55,489 nt of DNA from Actinomycetes bacterium (GTDB lineage Bacteria; Actinomycetota; Acidimicrobiia; Acidimicrobiales; Palsa-688). The notes under the pieces are model-generated. The model worked only from the letters and a program-made list of their open reading frames with translations, did no database searches and was not told where the DNA came from. The position numbers and the translations under genes are program-made. The stretch is from positions 58,710 to 114,198 of the forward strand of contig JAKCDU010000006.1 of NCBI GenBank assembly GCA_021838445.1, in the 5' to 3' direction. Shown here piece by piece: positions 1 to 47,242 of the stretch. Numbering within the stretch: position 1 is the first letter of the stretch; the number at the start of each line of letters is the position of its first letter.

Positions 1-2
1 GA

Positions 3-1565
3 TCAGCGGTCCGGCAGGAGCGAGTAGTCCGGGAAGTTGCCGTAGAGGCGCTCGTTGGAACCGTCGGGGCCGTGGGTGACGGCCTGGACGAGGAGGTCGC
101 CGCCCACGAAAGCCCCTTTCCAGGAGTGTCCGAGGCCCCCGAAGACCTCCTCGCGGTCACCGCGACTGCGGGGCTTGTTGATCCCGACCTTGAAGGACTG
201 GAGCTGCTCGGCGATGCGCTCCGCGAAGTCGAGGTCGTCGGTGGCGATCGACCCGACCAGCGAACCGTTACTGGCGTTCATGGCGGCCAGGAGCTCGGAC
301 TCGGTGTCGACTATGACCACCGAGTCGATGGGCCCGAACGGCTCGGCGTGGTGCAGCGACCAGTTGGCCGGGGGCTGCAGGATGCAGGCGGGGGCAACGT
401 AGGCCGATATGTCCTGACCGTCGAGGAACTCGCCGTCGGCCAGGCTCCCCCGGTACAGGGGGATGCCCCCGCCGCGTTGGGCCTGCTCGAACTGCTCCAC
501 CAGATCGGCTGCTTTGGTGGCGTGGATCACCGGACCGAAGTCCAGATTGGGCAGGGGATCGTCGGGAGCGGTAACGGCCAGGGGATGCCCGAAACGAACC
601 GATTTGATCACCGGCAGGTAGGTCTCGAGGAACGCCGGGAACAGACGACGCTGGACCACGTAACGGGGGTAGGCGGTGCAGCGCTGTTTGGCGTACTCGA
701 AGCCCTTGCGCAGATGCTGGGCCAACAGGTGCCACTGGCTGAAGTCCCAGATACCCCACGTGTTCAGCCCCTCCTGTTCGAGCATGTGGCGCCGGCCGGT
801 GTCGGCGAGCGACACCGCCGCCTTGCGCCCGTTGGCCCGCCCGCCGACGAAGGCCAGCGCGCCGAGCCCCTCGGATCGGACCAGTACCTCACCGAGGTGG
901 CCGCCGACACCCGACAGGAGAGTGACTGGCAGCCCGGCGCGCTTCATGAGCGCATGGGCCAGGGTCAACGTGTGGAACCCGCCCTGGCTGGGGGTCTTGG
1001 CCACCACGGCGTTCCCGGCCAGGAGCTGGACCAGCTCGGCGTGGACCTGAACGCTCATCGGGTAGTTCCAACTGGCGATGTTGGAAACCGGTCCCGGCAG
1101 CGGAAGCCTGGGGGAATCCGTGCCGACCGCCAGTTGGCGCTCGATCTCGCCCACATACCACCGGACCCCGTCCAAGCAGCGGTCCACGTCGGCACAGGCC
1201 AGCCTCCACGGCTTGCCTATCTCCCAGACCAGCAGCAGGGCCAGCAGGTCGCGGTGCTCGGTCATGGCATCTACCGCCGTGGTGACCCGGGCCCGGCGCT
1301 CCTCGAGGTCGACGCGGCACCAGTCTCGGTGTTCGGTGACGGCGTGGGCCACCGCCTGGTTGGCCTCGTCCAGATCCACCCGGGGGGGCCCCGGGATGGG
1401 GGTGCCGTCCACCGGGTTCACGTGGTCGCCGGGTATCCCCACCCGACGCCATTCCCCTCGCGTCAGGTTCCGCAAGCGGTCCGAATCGAAGGCCTCAGGC
1501 GCCACCGAAACGCAGCGGGCATAGGTCTCCCACCACGAGGTACCCGGCTTGAGGACAAGGCTCAC
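3..1565 (-). CDS. aldehyde dehydrogenase family protein
   Basis: NAD(P)-dependent oxidation of an aldehyde to its acid is the expected role. The protein (520 aa) shows the ALDH-fold signatures: the cofactor-binding stretch around NIASWNYPMS with the AKTPSQGG loop, the catalytic glutamate in LEQEGLN, and the nucleophilic cysteine in AKQRCTAYP. I start it at a GTG (1565) that has AGGAG six bases upstream; an open frame extends to 1736, but that extra N-terminus has no ALDH character. It is divergent from the enoyl-CoA hydratase at 1735. The substrate cannot be told from sequence; it is more divergent than the methylmalonate-semialdehyde dehydrogenase at 45725. The stop is only 3 bases from the window edge, so its downstream neighbour is unseen. 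Confidence 0.85.
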   Translation of the reverse strand: MSLVLKPGTSWWETYARCVSVAPEAFDSDRLRNLTRGEWRRVGIPGDHVNPVDGTPIPGPPRVDLDEANQAVAHAVTEHRDWCRVDLEERRARVTTAVDAMTEHRDLLALLLVWEIGKPWRLACADVDRCLDGVRWYVGEIERQLAVGTDSPRLPLPGPVSNIASWNYPMSVQVHAELVQLLAGNAVVAKTPSQGGFHTLTLAHALMKRAGLPVTLLSGVGGHLGEVLVRSEGLGALAFVGGRANGRKAAVSLADTGRRHMLEQEGLNTWGIWDFSQWHLLAQHLRKGFEYAKQRCTAYPRYVVQRRLFPAFLETYLPVIKSVRFGHPLAVTAPDDPLPNLDFGPVIHATKAADLVEQFEQAQRGGGIPLYRGSLADGEFLDGQDISAYVAPACILQPPANWSLHHAEPFGPIDSVVIVDTESELLAAMNASNGSLVGSIATDDLDFAERIAEQLQSFKVGINKPRSRGDREEVFGGLGHSWKGAFVGGDLLVQAVTHGPDGSNERLYGNFPDYSLLPDR

Positions 1566-1734
1566 GGAGGCTCCTAGCGCATCGCGCCCACCCCGGGCCG
1601 GGGCTGACGGTGCTCGGTAGAAAATAGTCGAGGAACCGTGCCGGGCGGTGAGGGGCGGCCCCGGGAAACCTTGGTCGACCTCGATATCACCGCGCGGTAA
1701 GGTGCCGTCCTTGCCATAGTCCGAGGGAGACGTC

Positions 1735-2661
1735 ATGAGCCAAGCGGCACCGGATTACCGGTTCATCACCTACGAATCGTTGGACGACGGGACGATCGTG
1801 CGCATCATGCTCAACCGTCCCAAGCAGCGCAACGCCCAGAGCCGAGGTCTGCTCGTCGAGCTCGGTGACGCTTTCGCCCGGGCCGAGGTCGACGACACGG
1901 TGCGGGTGGTGATACTCGGGGGGAACGGCTCCATGTTCTCCTCGGGCCATGACCTCGGCAGCTCCGACTCGCGCGAGGAGATGCTGCCCGGTCCCAACCA
2001 GCACGAGTCGTGGCGAACCAACGGCGGCGGACGGGAGGGCGCGGAGCGGATGATGCTGCAGGAATGGCACTACTTCTTCCAGAACACGCTGCGGTGGCGC
2101 AACCTGCGCAAGATAACCATCGCCGAGGTCCACGGACCGGTGTTCGCCGCCGGGTTGATGCTGGCCTGGGCCTGCGACCTGATCATTGCCGCCGAGGGAA
2201 CCACCTTTGCCGACGTGGTCGGTACCCGCCTCGGCATGTGCGGCCTCGAGTACTTCGCCCATCCCTGGGAGTTCGGGCCCCGCAGGGCCAAGGAACTCCT
2301 GCTCACCGGCGACTCCATCGACGTCGAGGAGGCCCACCGGCTGGGCATGGTCTCGAAGATCTTTCCTGCCGACCAACTCCCGGGTATGACCCTCGAGTTC
2401 GCCCGCCGAATAGCTCGCATCCCCACCATGGCCGCGTTGCTCATCAAGGAATCGGTCAACCAGAGCGTGGACAACATGGGCTTCTACACCGCGCTGAACG
2501 CCTGCTTCACTATCCACGAGCTGAACCACTCCCACTGGGCCTGGGTCCACGAGGACCGCTTTCCGGCGGCCACCCCGGCCGACGGCATCGACGACTGGCG
2601 TAACCCCCCGCCGGTCGTCCCGGCGGTGAAGGACCGCCCTCGCGCCGACAGCCCGACCTGA
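1735..2661 (+). CDS. enoyl-CoA hydratase/isomerase family protein
   Basis: Crotonase-fold protein of 308 aa, expected to act on an acyl-CoA thioester in beta-oxidation-like catabolism. The N-terminal RIMLNRPKQRNAQS motif, the oxyanion-hole segment SSGHDLG and the second oxyanion loop VHGPVFAAGLMLAWACD are clear. The two acid/base glutamates of classical hydratases are not obvious at their usual places (the region reads GTRLGMCGLEYF and HPWEFGPRRAKE), so the exact reaction (hydratase, isomerase or hydrolase) is open. The ATG has GAGGGAGACGTC just upstream. It probably forms an operon with the F420-type enzyme that begins 17 bases after its stop. Confidence 0.85.
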   Translation: MSQAAPDYRFITYESLDDGTIVRIMLNRPKQRNAQSRGLLVELGDAFARAEVDDTVRVVILGGNGSMFSSGHDLGSSDSREEMLPGPNQHESWRTNGGGREGAERMMLQEWHYFFQNTLRWRNLRKITIAEVHGPVFAAGLMLAWACDLIIAAEGTTFADVVGTRLGMCGLEYFAHPWEFGPRRAKELLLTGDSIDVEEAHRLGMVSKIFPADQLPGMTLEFARRIARIPTMAALLIKESVNQSVDNMGFYTALNACFTIHELNHSHWAWVHEDRFPAATPADGIDDWRNPPPVVPAVKDRPRADSPT

Positions 2662-2678
2662 GCGGCGCGGCAGACCAC

Positions 2679-3542
2679 ATGGAGTTCTACGTCTTTCTCC
2701 CACAGATGAGGATGACCCTCGACGCCATCGTCGAGCGCTCCCGGGCGGCCGAGACGGCCGGCTTCACCGGGATGACGGGGATGGACCATCTGGCCCCCCC
2801 GATGGCGTTCCAGTCGCCGATGTACGAGGCCATGGTCACTTCCACCTGGATCGCCGCTCGCACCGAGACGCTGAGGGTGGGATCGCTGGTGCTCTGTGAC
2901 TCCTTCCGCCATCCCGCCCTTCTGGCCCGGGAGGCGGTTTCCATCGACCATGCCTCGGGAGGTCGGTTCGATCTGGGCATCGGTTGGGGCTCGGTGCCCG
3001 ATGAGCTCGGGGTGTTCGGCGTCGGCAGCACCGAGCCCAGGGTCCGGGTGGGGCGCCTCAAGGAGACCCTCGAGATACTCGAGGCGCTGTGGTCGGGCGA
3101 GTCGTTCGACTACCAGGGCGAACATTTCAGCCTCCGTGGCGCCCAGCAGACCCCGACCCCGCTCGGGCGCATCCCCATCGTCATCGGCGGCGCCGGACCC
3201 AAGACCATGGAGCTGGTCGCCGCCCACGCCGATTGGTGGAACGTCCACGTCGGCATCCTGGACGAACTCGAGCGTATGCGGCCGCGGGCGGGAAAGGCTC
3301 GGCTGTCGCTTCAGACCTACGTGTCCTTCGTGGACTCCGAGGAGCGGCGGGCCGACATCGAGCAGACCACCCGGCGCCGCTTCGGGGACGGCCCGGTCAT
3401 CGGGTCGGCGGCCCAGCTCGTCGACCACTTCGGCGAGCTGTCCGAGCGTGGCGTGGAGAGGGTCTACGCCTGGTTCTGCGACTTCGCCGTACCGGAAACC
3501 CTCGCCGCGTTCGGCGAGGGCGTCATCGCCGCGCTGCGCTGA
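2679..3542 (+). CDS. LLM-class F420-dependent oxidoreductase
   Basis: Luciferase-like monooxygenase (LLM) fold, 287 aa, the usual length for F420-dependent members. Visible family signatures are MEFYVFLPQ at the N-terminal strand, the SIDHASGGRFDLGIGWGS segment and the cofactor-side GRIPIVIGGAGPKTMELVAAHADWW region. Such enzymes transfer hydride between F420 (or FMN) and alcohols, enones or imines; the substrate is not identifiable. It follows the hydratase gene by 17 bases, so the two are likely co-transcribed, and it is convergent with the TetR gene, with only four bases between the two stops. Confidence 0.85.
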   Translation: MEFYVFLPQMRMTLDAIVERSRAAETAGFTGMTGMDHLAPPMAFQSPMYEAMVTSTWIAARTETLRVGSLVLCDSFRHPALLAREAVSIDHASGGRFDLGIGWGSVPDELGVFGVGSTEPRVRVGRLKETLEILEALWSGESFDYQGEHFSLRGAQQTPTPLGRIPIVIGGAGPKTMELVAAHADWWNVHVGILDELERMRPRAGKARLSLQTYVSFVDSEERRADIEQTTRRRFGDGPVIGSAAQLVDHFGELSERGVERVYAWFCDFAVPETLAAFGEGVIAALR

Positions 3543-3546
3543 GCCA

Positions 3547-4230
3547 TCAGCGGGGAAAGGCCGCCGCACCGGCGCGCAGACAGAACGCCACCAGGTGGTC
3601 TACCTCCGCGGGAGTCGGCCCCGTGGCCGCCCACAGGTGCGCCGACACCTGCCCCAGCAGCGCGTGCGCCAGCAGGACGGCGTCGCAGGAGGGATCGTGG
3701 CCGCCCAGTTCGGTGAGGGGGCCCACCAGAAGCGCACCAATGGTCACCGCGGCCTCGTTGCGGTTGCCCCCCGAATGCTCACCTCCGTTCCACAGGACGG
3801 CCAGAGTGGTGGCGGCGATCTCGCCGTCGGCCTGCGAAAGGACTCCCTCCACCCACCGCCGGACCCGGCCCTCAGGTGTCAACTCCTTGGCCATCTGATG
3901 GGCGAGGTAACCGGCGAGGCGCTCGGTGCCGTCCTCGACGAGGGCCGCGACCAGCGCCGCCTTGGAGGGGAAATGGCGGTAGAACGCCTCGTTGGACAGG
4001 CCCGACGCGGCGACGATGTCAGCTACCCGCGGTCGGGTGGCCGTCCCATGGAGGCGGATCAAGTCGAGGGCGGCGTCGAGCAGGCGGCGCACCTCCGAGG
4101 TGTAGTCAGCACCGCGGCGGGCCAGGGTGCGACCGGCGATGCGCGCCGCCACGTCGCCCCCGGCCCGGTCGGCGTCACCGCCACTCCCCGGCCCCGCCGG
4201 ACCGTTCCGCAGAATTGCATTCTGAACCAT
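3547..4230 (-). CDS. TetR-family transcriptional regulator
   Basis: A 227-aa TetR repressor. The helix-turn-helix lies at about residues 65-105 (RVADIVAASGLSNEAFYRHF, then SKAALVAALVEDG); the C-terminal ligand domain is not assignable. It is divergent from the ACAD/kinase run starting at 4271. The intervening DNA carries two 13-bp palindromes (4211-4223 and 4232-4244), one on each side of this ATG, so autorepression plus repression of the ACAD operon is the simple reading. There is no clear ribosome-binding site, and a -10-like TAGAAT (4241-4236 on the minus strand) sits a few bases before the ATG, so the message may be leaderless. A shorter start inside the first 40 residues cannot be excluded, because that stretch is low-complexity. 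Confidence 0.88.
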   Translation of the reverse strand: MVQNAILRNGPAGPGSGGDADRAGGDVAARIAGRTLARRGADYTSEVRRLLDAALDLIRLHGTATRPRVADIVAASGLSNEAFYRHFPSKAALVAALVEDGTERLAGYLAHQMAKELTPEGRVRRWVEGVLSQADGEIAATTLAVLWNGGEHSGGNRNEAAVTIGALLVGPLTELGGHDPSCDAVLLAHALLGQVSAHLWAATGPTPAEVDHLVAFCLRAGAAAFPR

Positions 4231-4244
4231 GAGAATTCTATTCT
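4211..4244. promoter_or_regulatory. paired TetR-type operators
   Basis: Two near-identical palindromes of the form AGAAT-N3-ATTCT: AGAATTGCATTCT at 4211-4223 and AGAATTCTATTCT at 4232-4244. Their centres are exactly 21 bp apart, two helical turns, so two dimers could sit on one DNA face. They straddle the start codon of the TetR gene and overlap the promoter of the divergent ACAD operon. Binding by the adjacent TetR protein is inference; the palindromes and spacing are read directly. Confidence 0.75.
4215..4244 (+). promoter_or_regulatory. promoter of the ACAD/kinase operon
   Basis: A -35 element TTGCAT (4215-4220), an 18-bp spacer and a -10 element TATTCT (4239-4244) precede the ACAD start at 4271. 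The -35 lies inside the first TetR-type palindrome and the -10 inside the second, which would make occupancy strictly repressive. Confidence 0.6.
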
Positions 4245-4270
4245 GGCACCCGATCAGAGGGAGGGTGCAA

Positions 4271-5572
4271 ATGGCATGGGACTTCGAGACCGATCCCGAG
4301 TACCAGGAGAAGCTGGACTGGGTCGACCAGTTCGTCAGGAACGAGGTGGAGCCGCTCGACTACGCCTTCCCCCACCTGCAGTTCGTCCCTCTCGACGACG
4401 CCCGGCGCAAGATAGTCGATCCGCTCAAAGATGAGGTCCGACGCCAGGGTCTGTGGGCCACCCATCTCGGCCCCGAACTTGGCGGGCAGGGCTTCGGCCA
4501 GCTGAAGCTGGCCCTGCTCAACGAGATTCTGGGTCGCTCCCACTGGGCGCCCATCATCTTCGGCACCCAGGCCCCCGACACGGGCAACGCCGAGATCATC
4601 GCCCACTACGGAACCGACGAGCAGAAGTCCCGCTACCTGCAGCCCCTGCTCGACGGTGAGTGCTTCTCGTGCTACTCGATGACCGAGCCGCACGCCGGGG
4701 CCGACCCGACGCTGTTCAAGACCCAGGCCGTCAAGGACGGCGACGAGTGGGTGATCAACGGCTGGAAATACTTCTCCTCCAACGCCCGAACGGCGTCTTT
4801 TCTCATCGTGATGGCGGTGACCAACCCCGAGGTGAGCCCGTACAAAGGGATGTCCATGTTCCTCGTTCCTACAGACACTCCTGGTGTCAAGATCGAACGG
4901 AACGTAGGTCTGTGGGGTGAACCCATCAACGACGGCTTTCACGCCCTCATCCACTACGAAGAAGTTCGGGTGCCCGACACCGCGCTGCTCGGCGGGGAGG
5001 GTCAGGCGTTCGTGATAGCCCAGACTCGCCTCGGGGGAGGGCGGATACATCACGCCATGCGGACCATCGGTCTGGCCCAGAAGGCCATCGACATGATGTG
5101 CGAGCGGGCTCTCAGCCGCAACGTCTCGGGCGGCCTTCTCGCCGAGAAGCAGTTCGTGCAGGGCTACATCGCCGACTCCTACGCCCAGCTGAAGCAGTTC
5201 CGGCTGTTCGTGCTCTACGCCGCGTGGGAGATCGACAAGTACAACGACTACAAGCGGGTACGCAAGGACATCGCCACCGCCAAGGTAGTGATGCCCACCG
5301 TCCTCCACGACATCGCCTGGCGGGCCATGCAGATCCACGGGGCTCTGGGCACCACCAACGAGATGCCGTTCTTCGGGATGATCCACGGAGCAGGGGTCAT
5401 GGGCCTCGCCGACGGCCCCACCGAGGTGCACAAGGCGACCGTCGCCCGCCAGGTGCTGCGTGACTACCGGCCGACCGACGGCATGTGGCCGACGGAATGG
5501 ATCCCGGGCAAGATCGACGCCGCCCAGGCCAAGTTCGGCGAGCTGATGGAGCTCGAGGTGGGCAACCTGTGA
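4271..5572 (+). CDS. acyl-CoA dehydrogenase, ACAD10/11-like
   Basis: A 433-aa flavoprotein of the acyl-CoA dehydrogenase fold. The flavin/substrate segment YSMTEPHAGADPTLFKTQA, the strand DEWVINGWKYFSSNA and the C-terminal QIHGALGTTNEMPF are present, and the end LADGPTEVHKATVARQVL is the type seen in the dehydrogenase domain of ACAD10/ACAD11 and LvaC-like proteins. It is longer than ordinary ~380-aa ACADs. I chose the ATG at 4271 because AGGGAGG lies about 8 bases upstream; the frame is open back to 4229, across the operators. Its stop overlaps the GTG of the next gene, a kinase-fold protein, which supports joint action on 4-hydroxyacyl-CoA (inference). The gene is divergent from its probable TetR repressor. 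Confidence 0.88.
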   Translation: MAWDFETDPEYQEKLDWVDQFVRNEVEPLDYAFPHLQFVPLDDARRKIVDPLKDEVRRQGLWATHLGPELGGQGFGQLKLALLNEILGRSHWAPIIFGTQAPDTGNAEIIAHYGTDEQKSRYLQPLLDGECFSCYSMTEPHAGADPTLFKTQAVKDGDEWVINGWKYFSSNARTASFLIVMAVTNPEVSPYKGMSMFLVPTDTPGVKIERNVGLWGEPINDGFHALIHYEEVRVPDTALLGGEGQAFVIAQTRLGGGRIHHAMRTIGLAQKAIDMMCERALSRNVSGGLLAEKQFVQGYIADSYAQLKQFRLFVLYAAWEIDKYNDYKRVRKDIATAKVVMPTVLHDIAWRAMQIHGALGTTNEMPFFGMIHGAGVMGLADGPTEVHKATVARQVLRDYRPTDGMWPTEWIPGKIDAAQAKFGELMELEVGNL

Positions 5573-6591
5573 TCGACGTCGAGCGTCTGACGACCTGGAT
5601 GGACGACGTCGGGCTGCCCGGCGGAGGGGAGCCGGTACAGCACCGGTACCTCTCGGGTGGCTCGCAGAACGAGATCTACGAGATCAGACGCGGCGACCTT
5701 CACGCCGCCTTGCGGATCCCTCCGCCGTCGGCCCCTGAAAGCCGCGACGCCGGCATCCTACGGGAGTGGCGAATCATCGCCGCCCTCGAGGGCACCGACG
5801 TGCCCCACACCACCGCCATCGGGATGTGCGAGGACCAGTCGGTGCTCGGACGGTCGTTCTACCTGATGGGGTTCGTAGACGGCTGGTCGCCCATGGAGAC
5901 CGGTCGGCGGTGGCCCGAGCCGTTCCACACCGACCTGGAGGCCCGCCAGGGGCTGGCCTTCCAGCTCGTCGAAGGCATCGCCCTGCTCGGCAACGTCGAC
6001 TGGCAGGCGGCGGGACTGGCCGACCTCGGCCGCCCCGACGGGTTCCACGAGCGCCAGGTGGACCGCTGGACCGCTTTCCTGGAGCGCATCAAGGGTCGGG
6101 ACCTGCCCGGCTTCGCGGAGGCCGCGGCCTGGCTGCGCCGTAACCGCCCCATCGACTTCGTCCCGGGGCTCATGCACGGCGACTACCAGTTCGCCAACGT
6201 CATGTTCCGCCACGGGGCCCCGGCCCGGCTGGCCGCCATCATCGACTGGGAGATGGGCACCGTCGGCGATCCCAAGCTCGACCTCGGCTGGGTCGTCCAG
6301 TCCTGGCCCGACGACACCGACGACCCGTCCCTTACCGGACTCGGGTACGCCGACATGTACGCGATGCCCTCCAAGGACGCCATCGTGGGTCACTACGCCG
6401 AGGTGTCGGGCCGCCAGGTCGACGACCTCGACTACTACCTCGTCCTGGCCAAGTGGAAGCTCGGCGTGGTCCTCGAGCAGGGCTACCAGCGACGAGGCGA
6501 CGACGAGAAGCTCAATGCGTTCGGCCCGATCGTCCTCGACTTGATGAGAGGCGCCGCCGACCTGGCGGAATCCACCGACTACGGGCGCTGA
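5569..6591 (+). CDS. APH-fold phosphotransferase, candidate hydroxyacyl-CoA kinase
   Basis: A 340-aa aminoglycoside-phosphotransferase-fold protein. The catalytic loop HGDYQFAN (H203, D205, N210) and the metal-binding IIDWEMGTVGDPKLDLGW (D226) are intact, and GGSQNEIYEI near residue 30 is the ATP-side loop, so it should be an active kinase. Family knowledge: close relatives are LvaA of levulinate catabolism and the kinase domain of ACAD10/11, which phosphorylate the hydroxyl of 4-hydroxyacyl-CoA before a partner ACAD-fold enzyme removes phosphate. The GTG start overlaps the ACAD stop in a GTGA, indicating coupled translation. A role in drug resistance is unlikely in this setting. Confidence 0.82.
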   Translation: MIDVERLTTWMDDVGLPGGGEPVQHRYLSGGSQNEIYEIRRGDLHAALRIPPPSAPESRDAGILREWRIIAALEGTDVPHTTAIGMCEDQSVLGRSFYLMGFVDGWSPMETGRRWPEPFHTDLEARQGLAFQLVEGIALLGNVDWQAAGLADLGRPDGFHERQVDRWTAFLERIKGRDLPGFAEAAAWLRRNRPIDFVPGLMHGDYQFANVMFRHGAPARLAAIIDWEMGTVGDPKLDLGWVVQSWPDDTDDPSLTGLGYADMYAMPSKDAIVGHYAEVSGRQVDDLDYYLVLAKWKLGVVLEQGYQRRGDDEKLNAFGPIVLDLMRGAADLAESTDYGR

Positions 6592-6599
6592 GCGGGCCC

Positions 6600-7583
6600 G
6601 TGAAAGCAGCCGTCTGCCCCCGCTACGGCGGGCCCGAAGTGGTCGAGTTACAGGACCTGCCACCGCCCGACCCGGCTCGGGGACAGGTCCTGGTCCGCAT
6701 CGAGGCGGCCGCGGTCAACTTCCCCGATGTCTTGATCATCGCCGACCGCTACCAGGTGACGCTGCCCCCGCCTTTCATCCCGGGCAGCGAGTACGCCGGC
6801 GTGGTCACGCGGGTGGTCGACGACGACGGACCGTTCGAGGTCGGCCAGCGGGTCTTCGGCACGGCCATGTCCGGGGCCTTCGCCGAGCAGATCGCCGCGC
6901 CGGTCTCGTCGCTCAGCGCAGTGCCACCAGGGATTGGGCCGAGGCAGGCCGCCGCCTTCGGCGTGGCCCACCGCACCGCCTACCACGTGCTGCGGTCGGT
7001 TGCCGCCCTCGGCGCCGACGAGGACCTGGTGGTGCTGGGAGCCGGTGGCGGGGTCGGCCTGGCGGCGGTGGCCCTCGGACACCACATGGGGGCGCGGGTG
7101 ACCGCCGTCGCGTCGTCGGCGGAGAAGCTCGCGGCGGCCGCCGCCCAGGGTGCCCGGCATCTCATCGACCACCGCTGTGCCGACGTGCGCGCCACCCTCA
7201 AGGAGCTGCTCCCCGGGGGCGCCGACGTGGTGGTGGATCCGGTGGGGGGAGCCCTGTCCGAGCCGGCGCTGCGCTCGCTGCACTGGGGCGGGCGGTTCGT
7301 GACCGTCGGGTACGCCTCGGGCGAGATCCCCCGCATCCCGCTCAACCTGGTCCTGCTGAAGGGGGTGCACGTGCTGGGCTTCGAGTTCCGCGGCTTCGCG
7401 ACCCATTGCCCCGCCGAGGTGGACCGCAACGAGAGCGAGCTGATGGGCCTGTTGGCCGGCGGCCGGGTCGTGCCCCACATCGGGGCGACCTTCGCCTTGG
7501 AAGAGGCGGCGGCGGCCCTGCGCCACGTGGCCGAGGGCCGGGCCGTCGGCAAGGTCGTGCTCGACGTCGCGTCGAGCCAATAG
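6600..7583 (+). CDS. NADPH:quinone oxidoreductase-like MDR enzyme
   Basis: A 327-aa medium-chain reductase of the zinc-free quinone reductase/enoyl reductase group. The GroES-like N-terminal half contains FIPGSEYAGVV, and the nucleotide-binding half starts with LGAGGGVGLAAVALG; the structural and catalytic zinc ligands of alcohol dehydrogenases are absent. It likely reduces an enoyl or quinone substrate with NADPH. The GTG at 6600 lies eight bases after the kinase stop; upstream in-frame sequence lacks domain character. It belongs to the same operon as the ACAD and kinase genes, so reduction of an alpha,beta-unsaturated intermediate is plausible. Confidence 0.85.
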   Translation: MKAAVCPRYGGPEVVELQDLPPPDPARGQVLVRIEAAAVNFPDVLIIADRYQVTLPPPFIPGSEYAGVVTRVVDDDGPFEVGQRVFGTAMSGAFAEQIAAPVSSLSAVPPGIGPRQAAAFGVAHRTAYHVLRSVAALGADEDLVVLGAGGGVGLAAVALGHHMGARVTAVASSAEKLAAAAAQGARHLIDHRCADVRATLKELLPGGADVVVDPVGGALSEPALRSLHWGGRFVTVGYASGEIPRIPLNLVLLKGVHVLGFEFRGFATHCPAEVDRNESELMGLLAGGRVVPHIGATFALEEAAAALRHVAEGRAVGKVVLDVASSQ

Positions 7584-7627
7584 CTTTGACTCCGGTGCCG
7601 GGGTTCGGCGTCGGGGGAGGTGGCGGG

Positions 7628-10267
7628 ATGCGCAGGGCCCTGTCGGGGATATCGGTGGTCGAGCTCGGTGGCGGGATCGCCGCGTCCTACTGCGCCAAGC
7701 TGCTCGGCGACCTCGGTGCAGACGTGGTCAAGGTCGAGCCACCGGGCGGCGACGCCCTGCGGCGGACGGCGGCCGACCCGGGACGGTCCCGGTCGGGCCT
7801 GGTCGTGCACCTGAACACCAGCAAGCGCAGCGTCGAGCTTTCGAGCGATTCCCTGTCGGATCGCCGGGCCCTCGAAGAGATGGTCGCCGGTTGCGATCTG
7901 GTCATCGAGTCCCGCCCCGGAGCCACCCTCGCCGCCTGGGGCATCGACGCCGACCGCCTGGTCGGCCAGCATCCCGGGCCGTCGGTGGTCCACATCAGCG
8001 GCTTCGGCCGGACCGGCCCCTACCGCGACTACCTGTGGGACGACATCGTCGTCCAGGCGGCCAGCGCCGCGTTCTTGACCCAGGGGTCCGTCGGGCCGGT
8101 CCCTTTGAAGCTGCCCCGCCACGTCGCCCTCTACTTCGTGGGCCACATGGCCGCCCTGGCTGGCACCGCGGCGGTGATGGCCGTCGAAGCCGGCCAGCCG
8201 AGCTCGCTGATCGACTGCGCCGCGGTTGAGGTGCTGGCGTCCTTACCGTTCCGCCAGGCCTTCCTCCTCGGATACCAGTACCGAGGGCGGACCCCTCCCC
8301 CCGACGACGCGGCCGCTTCAACCCCGACGCTCATACCGACCGGGGTGTTCCCCTGCGCCGACGGTTACGTGGCCCTCATGTCCACCACCCAGCAGCTGCA
8401 GGAAATGCTTCAGGTCCTCGACGACCCCGACGCCAAAGAGGCCTTCGCCCGGCCCGACGCCTTCGAGCGGCCCGAGACCAAGGAGGTTCTCGACGTCGCC
8501 GTCTACAACTGGTTGCTGTCGCGCACCCGGGCCGAGGCCACCGCGCTGGCCCAGGCCGCGGGCTGGCCGCTCGCCGGGGTCTACGACGCGGGGGAGATCC
8601 TCGAAGCCGATCACCTCCACCAACGCAACTACTGGGTGCACAGCGACGACCCAGAGCTCGGTTCCGTGGACCTGCCCGGGCCGTGGTGCCGCTTGGCCGA
8701 GGGCGGCTGGGCCCTGCGCTCCACGGCACCGGCTCCGGGCCAGCACACCGCCGAGGTGCTAGCCGGTCTCGGACACGACGCCGCCCCCCGCCGCCGGCCC
8801 GCCGCCGGGGCGGGGAGCGCCGGGGCGGGGAGCCCTCGAGCGGGGAGCCCTCGAGCGGAGAGTGTCGGGGCGGCAACTGTCGAGGAGTTGACACCGGATG
8901 GTGGCCACGAGCGGATCGCTCCCGGCGGCCTTCCGGCGGTGGCCGCCAGCGCGGCGCGGCCCCCGCTGCACGGGGTGCGGGTGCTCGACCTGACGGTCGT
9001 ATGGGCGGGGCCCTACGCCACCATGCTGCTCGCCGATCTCGGCGCCGAGGTCATCCGGGTGGAGAACCCGTTCGTCCTGCCCCCCACCACCAAGGGCTAC
9101 CACCCCCGTCCGGTCCTCACCAACCCGGGAATGCTCGGCTCCCTCTACGGGCCAGCCCGGCCGGGGGCCCCGGACCGCCCCTGGAACCGCCACGCCATGA
9201 ACAACTCACTGGCCCGCAACAAGCTTTCGGTGACCATAGACAACCGCCGCCCCGAAGGGCTGGAGCTGGTCATGCGCCTGGCCGAGCGCAGCGACGTCCT
9301 GATGGACAATTTCAAGGCCAACGGGCTCGAGCGCATCGGCATCGACGTGAGCGAGCTGCAGAGGCGCAACCCCCGGCTGGTGATAGTGCGCCTCCCCCCG
9401 ACCGGGCTTACCGGGGACTGGGCCGCCTACACCGGCTTCGGCGCCCAGTTCGACGCTCTGAGCGGGCTGTCGGCGGTCTGCGGCCACCTCGGCTCGGATC
9501 CGACCACCACCCCGGCCACGACCTACATGGACGCCGCTTCGGGCCCGGCCGGTGCGATGGCCGTGCTGGCCGCCCTGCGCTACCGCCGGGCCACCGGAAG
9601 AGGCCAGTTCGTGGAGATCTCCCAGAGCGAGAACGTCATGAGCCACCTGGGCGAGATGTTCGTCGACCACCAGCTGGGCATCACCGCCGGGCGGCTCGGA
9701 AACCGCCACGAACGCCACGCCCCGCAGGGCCTGTACCCGTGTGCCGGCCCTGACCGCTGGGTGGCACTGACCGTGCCCGACGACGGGACCTGGCGCCGTC
9801 TGGCCGGCCTGCTCGACGAGGTCGAGGGGGCCGACGACCCCCGCTTCACCGACGACCCCCGCTTCACCGACGAGCCGTCGAGGCGACTCCACCACGACGA
9901 GCTCGACCGCATCATCTCGCGCTGGACCGCCCGGCGGGATCCCATCGAGGCCTTCCACGTCCTGCAGGCGGCGGGAGTACCCGCTGGCCCTCTCCTCGAC
10001 GACCCGACGCTGAGCAACGACCCGAACCTGGCCGAGCGGGGTTGGTTCCGCCCACTCGCGAGCGCGGATGTGGGCGAGCACCTCCACCCGGGCCCGGCCT
10101 TCACCGGCCTGCATCTGGCCTGGTGGCGAGGCTCTCCCACCCTCGGCGAGGACAACGAGTACGTCTACAAGGAGATCCTCGGTGTCAGCGACGCTGACTA
10201 CGCCCGCTATGCCAAAGAGCACATCCTGGCCACGGACTACCTCCAAGCCGACGGGACGCCGTTCTAG
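7628..10267 (+). CDS. tandem (two-domain) family III CoA-transferase
   Basis: An 879-aa protein with two complete CaiB/BaiF domains. Domain 1 (about residues 1-385) begins [35 protein letters not shown]-like sequence, and domain 2 (about 440-870) restarts at LHGVRVLDLTVVWAGPYATM. Between them is a low-complexity linker built of AGS/PRAGS repeats (about 391-434). At the position of the catalytic aspartate, domain 1 keeps Asp (SSLIDCAAVE) while domain 2 has Glu (GQFVEISQSE). Such enzymes move CoA between carboxylic acids through an aspartyl-CoA adduct; bacterial relatives are usually single-domain dimers, so the fusion fixes an unequal pair. GGGGGAGG lies upstream of the ATG. It is the fourth gene of the operon beginning at 4271. 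Confidence 0.88.
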   Translation: MRRALSGISVVELGGGIAASYCAKLLGDLGADVVKVEPPGGDALRRTAADPGRSRSGLVVHLNTSKRSVELSSDSLSDRRALEEMVAGCDLVIESRPGATLAAWGIDADRLVGQHPGPSVVHISGFGRTGPYRDYLWDDIVVQAASAAFLTQGSVGPVPLKLPRHVALYFVGHMAALAGTAAVMAVEAGQPSSLIDCAAVEVLASLPFRQAFLLGYQYRGRTPPPDDAAASTPTLIPTGVFPCADGYVALMSTTQQLQEMLQVLDDPDAKEAFARPDAFERPETKEVLDVAVYNWLLSRTRAEATALAQAAGWPLAGVYDAGEILEADHLHQRNYWVHSDDPELGSVDLPGPWCRLAEGGWALRSTAPAPGQHTAEVLAGLGHDAAPRRRPAAGAGSAGAGSPRAGSPRAESVGAATVEELTPDGGHERIAPGGLPAVAASAARPPLHGVRVLDLTVVWAGPYATMLLADLGAEVIRVENPFVLPPTTKGYHPRPVLTNPGMLGSLYGPARPGAPDRPWNRHAMNNSLARNKLSVTIDNRRPEGLELVMRLAERSDVLMDNFKANGLERIGIDVSELQRRNPRLVIVRLPPTGLTGDWAAYTGFGAQFDALSGLSAVCGHLGSDPTTTPATTYMDAASGPAGAMAVLAALRYRRATGRGQFVEISQSENVMSHLGEMFVDHQLGITAGRLGNRHERHAPQGLYPCAGPDRWVALTVPDDGTWRRLAGLLDEVEGADDPRFTDDPRFTDEPSRRLHHDELDRIISRWTARRDPIEAFHVLQAAGVPAGPLLDDPTLSNDPNLAERGWFRPLASADVGEHLHPGPAFTGLHLAWWRGSPTLGEDNEYVYKEILGVSDADYARYAKEHILATDYLQADGTPF
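9833..9873 (+). repeat. 18-bp in-frame tandem duplication
   Basis: The unit GACGACCCCCGCTTCACC occurs twice in perfect tandem (9833-9850, 9851-9868) and a third copy begins with GACGAG. It encodes DDPRFT twice in the second domain of the tandem CoA-transferase. It keeps the frame and looks like a recent replication-slippage event. Confidence 0.8.
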
Positions 10268-10317
10268 AGGGCCCGGGCGGGGATCCGCAGTTCCGCCGCG
10301 GCGATTCCTCGCTCCCC

Positions 10318-10323
10318 TATAGT
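10318..10323 (+). promoter_or_regulatory. -10 element, probable leaderless promoter
   Basis: TATAGT sits six bases before the ATG of the SDR gene at 10330, so transcription would begin at or next to the start codon. No ribosome-binding site is present. A matching -35 is not evident. Confidence 0.5.
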
Positions 10324-10329
10324 CCGAAG

Positions 10330-11076
10330 ATGCGAGCTGTGGTCGTAGGAGCATCCAGCGGGCTGGGCCGCTGTATTGGTATCGGTTTGGGTCGTCGGGG
10401 GGCCCGAGTGGCGCTGCTGGCCCGGAGACGGGACCGCCTCGAATCGGCCGCCGCCGAAGCCGGCGAGGGCGCGTTGGCCATCGCCTGCGACGTGACCGAC
10501 GAGCAGTCCTGCCGCCGAGCCGTCGCTGACGCCGTCGCGGGACTGGGCGGTATCGACGCTCTGGTCTATGCCACCGGTGTGGGCCCGCTGGCCCGCCTGG
10601 CCGACATCGATGCCGCTACCTGGCAGCAGACGTTCGCGACCAACGTCACCGGCGCCGCCATAGTCACCGGTGCGGCCCTCCCGCACCTGACGGAGTCCTC
10701 GGGGGCGGCGGTCTACCTGTCGTCCATCAGCGCCAGCCTCACTCCCCCCTGGCCCGGCCTCGGCGGCTACATAGTGAGCAAGGCGGCCCTCGAGAAGCTG
10801 GTCGAGGCGTGGCGGGTGGAGCACCCGGGGGTGGGCTTCACCCGCCTGTCGGTCGGCGACTGCGCAGGGGGTGAGGGCCACGGGGCCACCGAGTTCAGCG
10901 CCGGTTGGGACATGGAGGTGGCGAGCGAGGTGATGCCGATCTGGCTGGCACGCAACTACATCGCCGGCGCCCTACTCGACGTCGACGACCTGGTCGGTGC
11001 CGTCGACTTCGTGCTCCGCCTCGGCGCCGGCGCCAGCGTCCCGAGCATGGTGGTGACGCCGCGCCCGGTCCAGTAG
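10330..11076 (+). CDS. SDR-family oxidoreductase
   Basis: Classical short-chain dehydrogenase of 248 aa. The cofactor loop is GASSGLGRCIGIG near the N-terminus, followed by the basic LLARRRDRL that favours NADP(H). The active-site serine lies in YLSSISAS and the Tyr/Lys pair in GYIVSKAAL. It presumably oxidises a hydroxyacyl or alcohol intermediate made by the upstream CoA-transferase/ACAD genes. The ATG is preceded by a -10-like TATAGT and no ribosome-binding site, so it can be expressed separately from the operon that ends 62 bases upstream. It is convergent with the ABC transporter ATPase gene. Confidence 0.87.
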   Translation: MRAVVVGASSGLGRCIGIGLGRRGARVALLARRRDRLESAAAEAGEGALAIACDVTDEQSCRRAVADAVAGLGGIDALVYATGVGPLARLADIDAATWQQTFATNVTGAAIVTGAALPHLTESSGAAVYLSSISASLTPPWPGLGGYIVSKAALEKLVEAWRVEHPGVGFTRLSVGDCAGGEGHGATEFSAGWDMEVASEVMPIWLARNYIAGALLDVDDLVGAVDFVLRLGAGASVPSMVVTPRPVQ

Positions 11077-38519: not shown

Positions 38520-38528
38520 CAGGCCCGG

Positions 38529-38621
38529 CGGAGGTGGACGGGAATCGAACCCGCCGCTGTGGGATCGCCACAGCCAACCGCTTTGAAGGCGGCGGAGCCC
38601 ACCAGGTACTCGGACACCTCC
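38529..38621 (-). tRNA. selC: tRNA-Sec (anticodon TCA)
   Basis: A 93-nt selenocysteine tRNA. Reading the minus strand: acceptor GGAGGTGT against CCACCTCC (seven pairs plus a T/C mismatch at the eighth position), a long D arm GAGTAC/GGGCTC with one mismatch, anticodon arm GCCGC-CTTCAAA-GCGGT giving anticodon TCA for UGA, a very long variable arm GCTGTGG-CGATC-CCACAGC, T arm GCGGG-TTCGATT-CCCGT and discriminator G. The following three bases are CCG, so CCA is not encoded. The long variable arm, UCA anticodon and neighbouring selA-selB-selD make the identity secure. It is divergent from selA. Confidence 0.95.
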
Positions 38622-38701: not shown

Positions 38702-39976
38702 ATGGCCGGAGAAATGCCGCCGCCCCGACAACGGCCACCATCCATCGACCGTCTGGCCCGCCAGATGGCCGCCACCGGACTGCCCCACCCCGTCCTGGTG
38801 GACGTGGCCCGCCGGGCCGTCGAGTCCGCCGACCCCGAGCAGGTGGAAGCCTCCGCCGCCGAGTCCGCCGATCGGCTGGCCCGGTCCCTGCTCCAGCCGG
38901 TGATCAACGCCACCGGGGTGCTCCTCCACACCAATCTGGGCCGGGCCCCCCTCAGCGTGGGAATCGACGCCGGCTATGCCAACCTCGAGCTGGACCTGAC
39001 CAGCGGGCGCCGCGGGGACCGGTCCTCGCACGCCGCTTCGCTCCTGGCTCTGGCCTCAGGGGCGGAGGCCGCCCTCGTCGTCAACAACGGGGCGGCGGCG
39101 GTGCTCCTGGTCCTGGCCGCCCTGGCCGCCGGACGCGACGTGCTGGTCAGCCGGGGCGAGGCCGTCGAGATCGGTGGGGGCTTCCGTATCCCGGAGGTGA
39201 TGGCCCAGTCGGGGGCCCGCCTGGTCGACGTGGGCACGACCAACCGGACCCGCGCCGGCGACTACCGGGCCGCGGTCAGCGCCGACACCGCTCTCTTGTT
39301 GAAAGTCCACCGGTCCAACTTCACCGTCAACGGCTTCACCGAGAGCGCCGACCCCGCGGAGCTGGTCGGGCTGGGGCCGCCCGTGGTCGTCGACCTGGGC
39401 TCCGGCCTGCTCGACCGGCGCACCCCGTGGCTGGCCGGTGGGCCCCCGGCGTGGCTGCGAGACGAGCCCGCCGTACGCCAGACCCTGGAGGCGGGGGCGG
39501 CCGTCGTGACCTTCAGCGGCGACAAGCTGCTCGGCGGCCCCCAGGCCGGCATCATCGCCGGGCGGGCTGACCTGGTCGAACGCTGCCGGCGCCACCCCCT
39601 GGCCCGGGCCCTGCGCCCGGGATCACTGGTGCTCCACGCCCTGCAGCAGGTGGCGCTCGCCTACCTCGACCGCCACGCCGGAGAGCAGCTACCGCTGTGG
39701 CGGATGGCCACCACCGACGTCGAGGAGCTGCGCCGGCGGGCCCGGGGCCTGGACGCCGGGCGGCTCATCGACTGTCAGTCGGTGGTCGGCGGCGGGGCCC
39801 TCCCCGGGATCACCATCGCCTCGGCTGGGGTGGAGCTCGACGGGGACCGTAGCCCCGCCCTCCGGGCCGGTCGGCCGCCGGTGATCGCCACGGTGCGCGA
39901 CGGACGCACCATCTGCGACCTGCGGACGGTGCTGCCCGAGCAGGACCACCTGCTGGCCGACGCCCTGAAGCGATGA
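38702..39976 (+). CDS. selA: L-seryl-tRNA(Sec) selenium transferase
   Basis: SelA converts Ser-tRNA(Sec) to Sec-tRNA(Sec) using selenophosphate and pyridoxal phosphate. The 424-aa protein has the family's N-terminal tRNA-binding region (RQMAATGLPHPVLVDVARRAV), the VINATGVLLHTNLGRAPLS segment, and the PLP lysine in FSGDKLLGGPQAG (Lys275). Length is slightly below the 463 aa of the E. coli enzyme. It is the first gene of selA-selB-selD; its stop overlaps the selB start (ATGA). The tRNA gene is 80 bases away on the opposite strand. Confidence 0.95.
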   Translation: MAGEMPPPRQRPPSIDRLARQMAATGLPHPVLVDVARRAVESADPEQVEASAAESADRLARSLLQPVINATGVLLHTNLGRAPLSVGIDAGYANLELDLTSGRRGDRSSHAASLLALASGAEAALVVNNGAAAVLLVLAALAAGRDVLVSRGEAVEIGGGFRIPEVMAQSGARLVDVGTTNRTRAGDYRAAVSADTALLLKVHRSNFTVNGFTESADPAELVGLGPPVVVDLGSGLLDRRTPWLAGGPPAWLRDEPAVRQTLEAGAAVVTFSGDKLLGGPQAGIIAGRADLVERCRRHPLARALRPGSLVLHALQQVALAYLDRHAGEQLPLWRMATTDVEELRRRARGLDAGRLIDCQSVVGGGALPGITIASAGVELDGDRSPALRAGRPPVIATVRDGRTICDLRTVLPEQDHLLADALKR

Positions 39977-41709
39977 GGGTCGTCGCCACCGCCGGCCACG
40001 TCGACCACGGCAAATCCACCCTGGTCCGCGCCCTCACCGGGACCGACCCCGACCGGCTCCCCGAGGAGAAGGCCCGGGGTCTCACCATCGACCTCGGGTT
40101 CGCGTCGGCCACGTTGCCGTCGGGCGAGGAGATCGGCTTCGTGGATGTACCCGGCCATGCCCGCTTCGTGGCCAACATGCTGGCCGGGGTCGGGTCGGTC
40201 GACGCCTGCCTGTTCGTGGTGGCGGCCACCGAGGGCTGGAAAGAGCAGTCGGAGGAGCACCTGCGCATACTCGAGCTGCTGGGCCTGACCCGCGGCCTGG
40301 TGGCGCTCACCAAGGTGGCCCTCACCGAGGACGGCTGGGCCGAGCTGATGGCCCTCGAGATACGCGAGCACCTGGTCGGCAGCTTCCTGGCCGACGCCGA
40401 GATGGTCGAGGTCGACACCCACGCCGGAGTCGGTCTCGACGCCCTCGTGGCGGCCATGGACCGGCTGGTGGCGGAGACCCCCGCGGCCGCCGATGCCGAC
40501 CGGCCCCGCCTCTGGGTGGACCGCAGCTTCGCCGTCCAGGGATCGGGAACCGTGGTCACAGGAACCCTGCGCGGCGGGTCCATCGCGGTGGGCAGCGAGC
40601 TGCGGGTGACCCCGGGGGAGCGCCCGGTGCGGGTGCGGGCGCTCCAGAGCCACCACCGCAAGCTCGACCGGGCCGAGCCGGGGCGGCGTCTGGCCGTCAA
40701 CCTGACCGGGGCCTCCCGCCAGGAGGTCGCCCGGGGCCAGGCGCTGGTGAGGCCGGGCCAGTGGCATGCCACCACCTGCTTCGACGCCCGCCTGGCGGTG
40801 CTGGCCTCGCTCGATCACCCCGTCGAGCGGCGCGGCGCCTATGCCGTCTACACCGGCAGCGGAGAGTACCCGGTGCGGATGCGGGTCCTGGGGTCGAGCC
40901 CGGTCGAACCGGGCCAGGAGGCCGACGTCCGGTTCTGGCTGCGGGTCCCCGGCGGCCTGCCCCTGCTTCCCGGCGACCGTTACGTGCTGCGCGAGGCCGG
41001 CCGCTTCGAGACCGTCGGCGGGGGCGAGGTCCTCGATGTGGAGCCGGTGCTGCCGGCCAAACGGGCCCGCCCCGACCGCCGCGTCGAGAGGGTCGTCGCC
41101 GAGCGGGGCTGGGTCGAGGGTGATCACCTGGCCCGCATCACCGGGCAGCGCATGGAGGCCACGGTGGGTCGCTGGGTCGTCGATCCGGCGGTGCTGGCCG
41201 CCGACGCCGCCGAACTCGCGGCCCGGGTCAGGGACGCCGGTGTGACCGGCCTCGACCTGGCCACCCTCGACGAGCGCCGGCGAGCCCTGCTCGAACGGAT
41301 CGACAGTGTCGGCTACCGCGACGGCCGGGCCGTGGACCGCAGCCTCGGCGGGCCGGCGGTGAGCGAAGCCGCGTCCCGGGTGCTGGCGGCGCTGGAGGAG
41401 GCCGGCTGGTCCCCTCCGACGCTGCCGCTGTCGGACCGGGGTGCGCTGCGTGAACTGCAGCGGGCCTCACTGGCCGTGGAGGCCGGCGATGCATGGTTCG
41501 CGGCCAGCGCCATCGACGCCGCGGTGGAGCGCCTGAAACCCTTGATGGCCGCCCATCCGGAGGGCTTCACGGTGGCCGACGCCCGCGACGCGCTGGGCAG
41601 CAGCCGCCGTTTCGTCGTCCCCCTCCTGGCCCATCTCGACGCCGCGGGGATCACCCGCCGTTGCGGCGACCTGCGCCGCGCCGGGGCCCGCCTGGTCAAG
41701 CCGTCCTGA
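39973..41709 (+). CDS. selB: selenocysteine-specific elongation factor SelB
   Basis: SelB delivers Sec-tRNA(Sec) to the ribosome at UGA codons marked by a SECIS hairpin. This 578-aa protein has the P-loop GHVDHGKST (8-16), switch residues KARGLTIDLGFA, DVPGHARF (G3), beta-barrel domains 2 and 3, and C-terminal winged helices ending in FVVPLLAHLDAAGITRR, which would bind the SECIS. The G4 guanine-recognition motif is unusual: where relatives have T/N-K-x-D, it reads LTKVALTED, with Ala at the Asp position. The ATG overlaps the selA stop; selD begins 24 bases downstream. Confidence 0.94.
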   Translation: MRVVATAGHVDHGKSTLVRALTGTDPDRLPEEKARGLTIDLGFASATLPSGEEIGFVDVPGHARFVANMLAGVGSVDACLFVVAATEGWKEQSEEHLRILELLGLTRGLVALTKVALTEDGWAELMALEIREHLVGSFLADAEMVEVDTHAGVGLDALVAAMDRLVAETPAAADADRPRLWVDRSFAVQGSGTVVTGTLRGGSIAVGSELRVTPGERPVRVRALQSHHRKLDRAEPGRRLAVNLTGASRQEVARGQALVRPGQWHATTCFDARLAVLASLDHPVERRGAYAVYTGSGEYPVRMRVLGSSPVEPGQEADVRFWLRVPGGLPLLPGDRYVLREAGRFETVGGGEVLDVEPVLPAKRARPDRRVERVVAERGWVEGDHLARITGQRMEATVGRWVVDPAVLAADAAELAARVRDAGVTGLDLATLDERRRALLERIDSVGYRDGRAVDRSLGGPAVSEAASRVLAALEEAGWSPPTLPLSDRGALRELQRASLAVEAGDAWFAASAIDAAVERLKPLMAAHPEGFTVADARDALGSSRRFVVPLLAHLDAAGITRRCGDLRRAGARLVKPS

Positions 41710-41733
41710 GGACCCACCGGTACGCTCGGGGAG

Positions 41734-47206: not shown

Positions 47207-47242
47207 GCCTTTCGTCGTCCCCCCCGACACCGAGGTCGGAGC

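Follow-up and report, generated by a model that had tools for sequence, protein, structure and literature searches.

Does an acyl-CoA dehydrogenase-fold (ACAD) enzyme whose gene is overlapped by that of an APH-fold kinase desaturate acyl-CoAs, or does it eliminate a phosphate that the kinase has added? The question is raised by a locus in a 55,489-nucleotide stretch, hereafter the window, of an Actinomycetes bacterium of the Palsa-688 lineage (assembly GCA_021838445.1, contig JAKCDU010000006.1, positions 58,710 to 114,198 of the forward strand). Kinase-driven dehydration of 4-hydroxyacyl-CoAs has only recently been assigned to genes, in the lva operon of Pseudomonas putida in 2017 (as cited in a passage of PMC6692424) and in mammalian ACAD10 and ACAD11 in 2024-2025 (passages of PMC11342911 and PMC12440821). 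An earlier note on this DNA had proposed a phosphorylation-elimination module of that kind. The proposal is supported at the sequence level by the position of the ACAD in a tree, by the residues R626, R631, H634, R637 and D753, and by the Asp, Asn and Arg176 of the kinase. It is quite likely that the pair is a two-step dehydration unit that would pass 4-hydroxyacyl-CoAs to beta-oxidation.

The two genes are arranged head to tail (Table 1). Bases 5569-5572 (GTGA) are common to both, with the kinase start on the ACAD stop, and the open reading frames (ORFs) and their translations confirm the four-base overlap that had been claimed. Pfam identified acyl-CoA dehydrogenase N, middle and C domains in the first protein and an APH domain in the second. 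The motifs quoted by the earlier note, HGDYQFAN and DWE in the kinase and LADGPTEVHKATVARQVL at the end of the ACAD, were all found as quoted.

The ACAD-fold enzyme belongs to the ACAD10/11 type

The best solved relatives of the window ACAD were human ACAD11 (2WBI, E value 2.9e-74), 4HR3 (8e-74) and mouse ACAD11 (8V3U, 2.6e-72), while the best match outside the ACAD10/11-type structures, another ACAD, reached 1.1e-43. The alignment had 153 rows, including three PDB segments, and its columns are named by the mouse ACAD11 numbering of PMC12440821. The window ACAD carries R626, R631, H634, R637 and D753, the last being the catalytic Asp that replaces the usual Glu. All five residues were present in 122 of the 153 rows and in none of the 28 ordinary ACADs, among which R631 alone is common; the three remaining ACAD10/11-type rows without the full set were one truncated protein and two altered ones. 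Passages of PMC12440821 report that mouse ACAD11 is impaired when R626, H634, R637 or the catalytic Asp is substituted (in the case of Lys at 637, only in part), that the HCMR motif is essential, and that LvaC has the ACAD10/11 active-site residues. The window ACAD retains the His and Arg of HCMR and has Ala in place of Cys635, so that the motif reads HAMR, as it does in 4HR3, and it has Thr at 756. A proline equivalent to Pro463 of human ACAD11, said in a passage of PMC11342911 to broaden the pocket, is present in the window ACAD and in 101 of 109 HAMR rows. Between the 109 HAMR rows and 13 HCMR rows, 24 alignment columns differ, C635A and D756T among them; 4HR3 was counted with the HCMR rows by tree position, despite its motif.

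A tree of 102 rows, 24 of them ordinary ACADs, was produced by a quick search with Shimodaira-Hasegawa-like approximate likelihood ratio test (SH-aLRT) support only and a midpoint root; LvaC was not included. The ACAD10/11-type sequences form a clade of 78 rows (SH-aLRT 98) that contains the window ACAD and none of the ordinary ACADs. Grouping with desaturating ACADs had been named beforehand as the result that would count against the proposal, and the window ACAD falls instead with the ACAD10/11 type. Within the clade it lies in a 64-row HAMR sub-branch (support 97); an HCMR row and an HCMN row are attached more loosely at its base (support 82 and 80). A separate 11-row sub-branch (support 100) holds mouse and human ACAD11, 4HR3, two ACADs of the window's own genome, and plasmid-borne copies from Cupriavidus, Sphingobium, Methylobacterium, Deinococcus, Bosea and Variovorax. 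Thus the tree places the ACAD in the clade that the earlier note expected and refines the picture to a sub-branch neighboring that of ACAD11.

These results bear on one alternative, an ordinary desaturating acyl-CoA dehydrogenase that adjoins an unrelated APH-family gene. The Pfam hits would agree with it, as they name acyl-CoA dehydrogenase and APH only, and so would the NCBIfam models, all of which scored below cut-off for both proteins. The tree position, the loss of the usual Glu, the gain of the phosphate-binding triad, and the overlap and co-conservation of the genes leave it scarcely credible, and we rejected the identity of an ordinary ACAD because both active-site residues and tree contradict it.

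The genome encodes four further ACAD10/11-type ACADs, one on contig C30 (HAMR, adjoining a kinase), an HCMR and an HCMN protein on C117, and an HCMR protein on C80, and therefore the organism has several candidate lyases. They also bear on a narrower form of the dehydration reading, compatible with it, in which the chemistry is the same and the substrate special (for instance a branched, cyclic or terpenoid side-chain acyl-CoA that bears a gamma-hydroxyl), with the HAMR proteins as a substrate-shifted offshoot. The other four ACADs could handle plain 4-hydroxy acids, 24 columns separate HAMR from HCMR rows, and the company of the pair is unlike that of the levulinate operon, with a fused CoA-transferase, an MDR-family reductase, LIV-type transporter genes and, at part of the loci, P450 families. 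Against this form, the residues for phosphate binding and for catalysis have not changed, and because the neighborhood varies between genera no single special substrate is indicated. We regard this narrower form as possible, if somewhat unlikely.

Two ACADs elsewhere in this genome were also noted. The HCMN protein of contig C117 (L032:8137-9543, minus strand) is of the ACAD10/11 type and has Asn for Arg637; no relative of the window kinase was found near it in the 18-kb stretch. On contig C53, an ACAD (46875-48086; L035:7801-9090, minus strand) that has the usual Glu and lacks the phosphate-binding triad adjoins an APH-family match (C53:48249-48956). Together with one other row it is the nearest outgroup of the ACAD10/11-type clade, and these neighbors may be another sort of kinase/ACAD pair.

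The kinase

Solved relatives of the window kinase were 9O56 (1.2e-42), 3DXP (2.1e-39), mouse ACAD11 (3.3e-22) and the 25-hydroxy steroid kinase 9FSG (6.6e-9). The catalytic Asp (D220) and the Asn that follows it (N225) were found in all 99 aligned rows and the CoA-contact residue R176 in 96 of them. An Arg-Glu pair (R65, E66) is invariant in the alignment, in the region of the residue that the ACAD11 paper calls R86, R86 itself not being placed by numbering. The AlphaFold2 model of the kinase (predicted local distance difference test, pLDDT, 92.8) matched the fold of 3DXP best (TMq 0.81).

In a kinase tree of 62 rows, without LvaA and with an outgroup of just four very long-branched rows, the window kinase falls in a 42-row branch (support 94), 28 rows of which read HGDYQFAN. 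It clusters there with most of the kinases that adjoin HAMR ACADs, and lies outside a distinct 13-row branch (support 93) formed by the ACAD11, 3DXP and 9O56 kinases. The kinase and ACAD trees mirror each other only partly.

Since the 25-hydroxy steroid kinase structures 9FT5 and 9FSG were the next best folds after 3DXP, we considered whether the kinase might act on a free alcohol, as does the 25-hydroxy steroid kinase of Sterolibacterium, and the ACAD on something unrelated. Both the window kinase and that enzyme have the APH fold, which in each case would ready an alcohol for phosphate elimination, and passages of PMC8449060 report that Actinobacteria have putative phosphotransferases of a similar kind and mention a phosphate lyase not yet identified. 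The steroid enzyme is only distantly similar, its match of 6.6e-9 being weak beside those of 3DXP and ACAD11. It acts on a steroid, and the same passages name no lyase candidate near its gene, while here the kinase and ACAD genes overlap at most loci, as described below. A free-alcohol kinase is therefore very improbable, and we return to the dehydration unit as the preferred reading.

Conservation of the gene pair

We scanned named genomes, keeping the best 80 loci, which are weighted towards close relatives, together with loci from the same family, plasmid loci and a sample of the phylum; the controls were ordinary-ACAD loci from the same family, 20 of which were hand-picked from 30 for the 4-kb count. 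Some stretches in every set end at contig ends and the loci are related, and therefore the counts of co-occurrence are not independent. A kinase lay within 4 kb of the ACAD at 64 of 80 named, 14 of 20 family, 8 of 9 HAMR plasmid and 7 of 8 HCMR-type plasmid loci, compared with 1 of 20 controls. For the quinone oxidoreductase-like MDR reductase (QOR) the corresponding counts were 48, 5, 4, 3 and 1. Within 1.5 kb, the kinase was found at 64 of 80 named, 14 of 24 family and 10 of 29 phylum loci and the QOR at 33, 5 and 2 of them, and neither at any of 30 controls. When the window was added to the best 80 named loci, the kinase was 3' of the ACAD on the same strand at 58 loci, and 50 of these 58 had the in-frame 4-bp start/stop overlap. 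This conservation, set against a single control locus, argues that the adjacency is not due to chance.

Nocardia, Rhodococcus, Mycobacterium and Acidimicrobiia relatives keep the pair, in many cases together with the MDR reductase, and two congeners (L070, L071) have the identical gene order, one of them ending at a contig end. Apart from the ACAD, kinase and QOR genes the neighborhood differs between genera; P450 families are close to part of the named loci. In the phylum sample, in which at most five candidates were scored per genome, 38 of 296 genomes had an ACAD match with E <= 1e-90.

Several observations weigh against the dehydration reading or against the marks by which we recognize the branch. 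No kinase lies within 4 kb at 16 of the 80 named loci, and some such ACADs therefore use a distant kinase or have another role. Position 756, Asp in ACAD11, is mostly Thr in the HAMR branch. Only 6 of the 13 HCMR rows, as aligned, have the pocket proline, which is thus not a clean marker; nor is HAMR by itself, since 4HR3 has that motif and sits inside the ACAD11 sub-branch. The structure model of the ACAD is of middling confidence (pLDDT 74.3). The window kinase is closer to 3DXP and 9O56, whose substrates are not stated in the search output, than to the mouse ACAD11 kinase. At five family loci with a HAMR ACAD (L077, L078, L079, L081 and L084) the nearby kinase is outside the 42-row branch, and the L084 ACAD lacks H634, while Cupriavidus pBB1 combines an ACAD of the ACAD11 sub-branch with a kinase from the window's side. 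Activity data were not found for any member of the HAMR branch.

A divergent TetR gene and two palindromes

The TetR-family gene upstream is divergent from the ACAD gene, and 5' of the latter are two perfect palindromes, AGAATTGCATTCT and AGAATTCTATTCT, whose starts are 21 bp apart. A palindrome scan of the window allowing up to 2 mismatches gave 2 matches where 2.0 were expected, so that the count alone is not significant. Their weight comes from both being exact, from the spacing, from their being the only exact AGAATNNNATTCT sites in the 3,986,990-base genome, and from their conservation. Like pairs with equal spacing and up to 2 mismatches per site were found 5' of the ACAD gene in two congeners, two Acidimicrobiia loci, an Actinomadura, Nocardia, Rhodococcus zopfii and Williamsia.

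To count sites, allowing at most one mismatch, we used the 150 bp upstream of the ACAD at those 93 loci whose ACAD was at least 60% identical and whose upstream sequence was long enough. A site was present at 14 of the 20 loci with a TetR relative and at 7 of the 73 without one (Fisher p 1.8e-7, relatedness ignored), compared with 24 of 6300 random 150-bp segments of the same loci. Of 16 loci, the window included, whose TetR was at least 49% identical, 14 had such a site and the other two had two-mismatch sites. In the stretches scanned, Mycobacterium/Mycolicibacterium loci had no such TetR and no site within 150 bp, and two of them had a one-mismatch site near -280. Neither a sigma-70-type promoter nor a terminator was found within 4100-4300. 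Because the longest TetR ORF includes operator 1 at its 5' end, the true TetR start is probably further in.

The earlier note had spoken of a dedicated TetR switch, and the divergent gene with a conserved double palindrome strengthens that idea. The TetR protein would bind both palindromes and repress the operon and itself. The molecule that releases it should be the pathway substrate or a close intermediate, and the palindromes provide a direct handle for finding it.

Proposed reaction and comparison with known systems

In the proposed scheme, the fused CoA-transferase would provide the acyl-CoA, and the SDR and MDR reductase would prepare it, 4-oxo being converted to 4-hydroxy and the alpha,beta double bond removed. 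The kinase would then use ATP to phosphorylate the gamma-hydroxyl of the 4-hydroxyacyl-CoA. In the ACAD-fold enzyme, which would contain flavin adenine dinucleotide (FAD), the Asp equivalent to mouse D753 would remove the alpha-proton while the equivalents of R626, H634 and R637 hold the phosphate; a hydride would pass to FAD and be returned and phosphate would be expelled, giving a 2-enoyl-CoA with no net redox change. The enoyl-CoA hydratase would take this product onward. From the sequences we infer this reaction, the order of its outer steps, and a substrate among gamma-hydroxy acids or lactones, as well as the repression described above.

The window proteins have the mammalian active-site residues named above, and the same two domains are adjacent in ACAD10 and ACAD11. 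In contrast to the fused mammalian proteins, the window has two separate, overlapping genes, with the ACAD first, and its proteins lie in neighboring sub-branches, both for the ACAD (HAMR, GPTEVH) and for the kinase (HGDYQFAN); unlike ACAD10, the pair has no HAD domain. On a plasmid of the archaeon Haloferax mediterranei (L179:2834-5993), genes for a HAD-family hydrolase, an ACAD10/11-type ACAD and a kinase are adjacent, matching in kind the three domains joined in ACAD10.

The Pseudomonas lva operon (LvaA, LvaC, LvaB, LvaD, LvaE) resembles the locus in its kinase and ACAD-type pair, in an SDR in the same run and in the predicted chemistry. Where it has LvaR, described as sigma-54-dependent in a passage of PMC6692424, the window has the TetR gene and palindromes. 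No LvaE-like or AMP-binding ligase was found among the nine genes scanned (1-11076), and with gaps of at most 62 bases there is no room for an LvaB-like gene inside the run, which has a fused CoA-transferase and an MDR reductase instead. LvaB is a weak criterion of the lva type, since it is also absent from the P. citronellolis cluster as described in PMC6692424. In that cluster a histidine phosphatase gene adjoins the lvaA homologue (passage of PMC6692424); on a Deinococcus radiodurans plasmid (L172:7256-9044) a histidine phosphatase family gene is overlapped by the kinase gene.

Here the kinase and the predicted lyase come from separate genes that belong to another branch and adjoin their own predicted switch, and the locus could be used to ask which residues set the substrate range, how important Cys635 is and what the MDR reductase does. 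It adds to the known systems a separate lineage, a frequent MDR partner, the make-up of the fused CoA-transferase, and the palindromes. No title on such an actinobacterial cassette was found among open-licence literature titles, which is weak evidence of absence. It is tempting to speculate that 4-hydroxyacyl-CoA dehydration has a second lineage, the HAMR/QFAN pair, which separated long ago and has its own substrate range and its own frequent partner in the MDR reductase. The pair might serve a TetR-switched route by which Actinobacteria clear 4-oxo/4-hydroxy-2-enoic acids from lipid peroxidation or terpenoid breakdown, the reductase saturating the double bond and the kinase and lyase removing the hydroxyl. 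As a whole we find this proposal doubtful.

Partner genes and other observations

Table 1. Features of the kinase/ACAD locus, in window coordinates
Feature	Position	Strand	Remarks
Enoyl-CoA hydratase, NF006140/PRK08290 subfamily	1735..2661	+	380.7 bits (cut-off 280); separate upstream unit
Luciferase-like oxidoreductase	2679..3542	+	nearest NCBIfam models F420-dependent, below cut-off
Divergent TetR-family regulator	3547..4230	-	longest ORF
Putative operator 1	4211..4223		perfect palindrome AGAATTGCATTCT
Putative operator 2	4232..4244		perfect palindrome AGAATTCTATTCT; 21 bp from operator 1
ACAD-fold enzyme, predicted 4-phosphoacyl-CoA phosphate-lyase	4271..5572	+	433 aa; HAMR branch, ACAD10/11 type
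APH-fold kinase, predicted 4-hydroxyacyl-CoA kinase	5569..6591	+	340 aa; GTG start
MDR-family NADPH:quinone oxidoreductase-like reductase (QOR)	6600..7583	+	best NCBIfam PIG3 family, below cut-off
Fused class III CoA-transferase	7628..10267	+	two CoA_transf_3 stretches, single polypeptide
SDR oxidoreductase	10330..11076	+	final gene of co-directional run

The genes from the kinase through the MDR reductase and CoA-transferase to the SDR run on one strand with gaps of 8, 44 and 62 bases, sizes that depend on the start codons we chose for the reductase and the CoA-transferase. LIV-type transporter genes are also in the neighborhood. The gene read earlier as enoyl-reductase-like is there, and its type is better described as MDR/quinone oxidoreductase; no counterpart of it is named in the lva and ACAD10/11 passages of PMC12440821, PMC11342911 and PMC6692424. 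Similarly, the tandem CoA-transferase does have two CoA_transf_3 stretches, which belong to one polypeptide.

The N-half of this polypeptide matched chain A of benzylsuccinate CoA-transferase (9FN0) best (9.7e-28), and the whole protein matched chain B (8.9e-38), mainly over the C-half. At the Asp column derived from formyl-CoA transferase (10UH), the established catalytic residue, Leu stands in the N-half and Asp in the C-half (residue 635 when read from 7628, the start codon we chose). Two CoA_transf_3 halves, one of them with the catalytic Asp, are the defining split of the benzylsuccinate-type family. With two halves and a single Asp, the fused transferase resembles benzylsuccinate-type class III CoA-transferases, differing from 9FN0 in being one fused polypeptide. 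The same Leu/Asp split occurs in the CoA-transferase of one congener, while another fused copy in that congener has Glu and Asp. From its position we infer that the transferase loads the substrate of the ACAD/kinase pair. Upstream of the window, the same genome (C10; L038:3120-5687, minus strand) encodes another fused CoA-transferase, which shows 49% identity over the matched region and has the same Leu/Asp split.

The SDR is a possible 4-oxoacyl-CoA reductase and could be the counterpart in role to LvaD. An enoyl-CoA hydratase family, assigned by Pfam from one member, is near 14 of the 80 named loci with a median place directly 3' of the kinase. Both this family and the upstream hydratase of the window, which may hydrate the product, fit a 2-enoyl-CoA product. 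Elsewhere in the window, genes of a selenocysteine set lie together (38527-38621, minus strand, and 38702-42750, plus strand), comprising tRNA-Sec, SelA, SelB and an AIR-synthase-family gene that we read as SelD-like.

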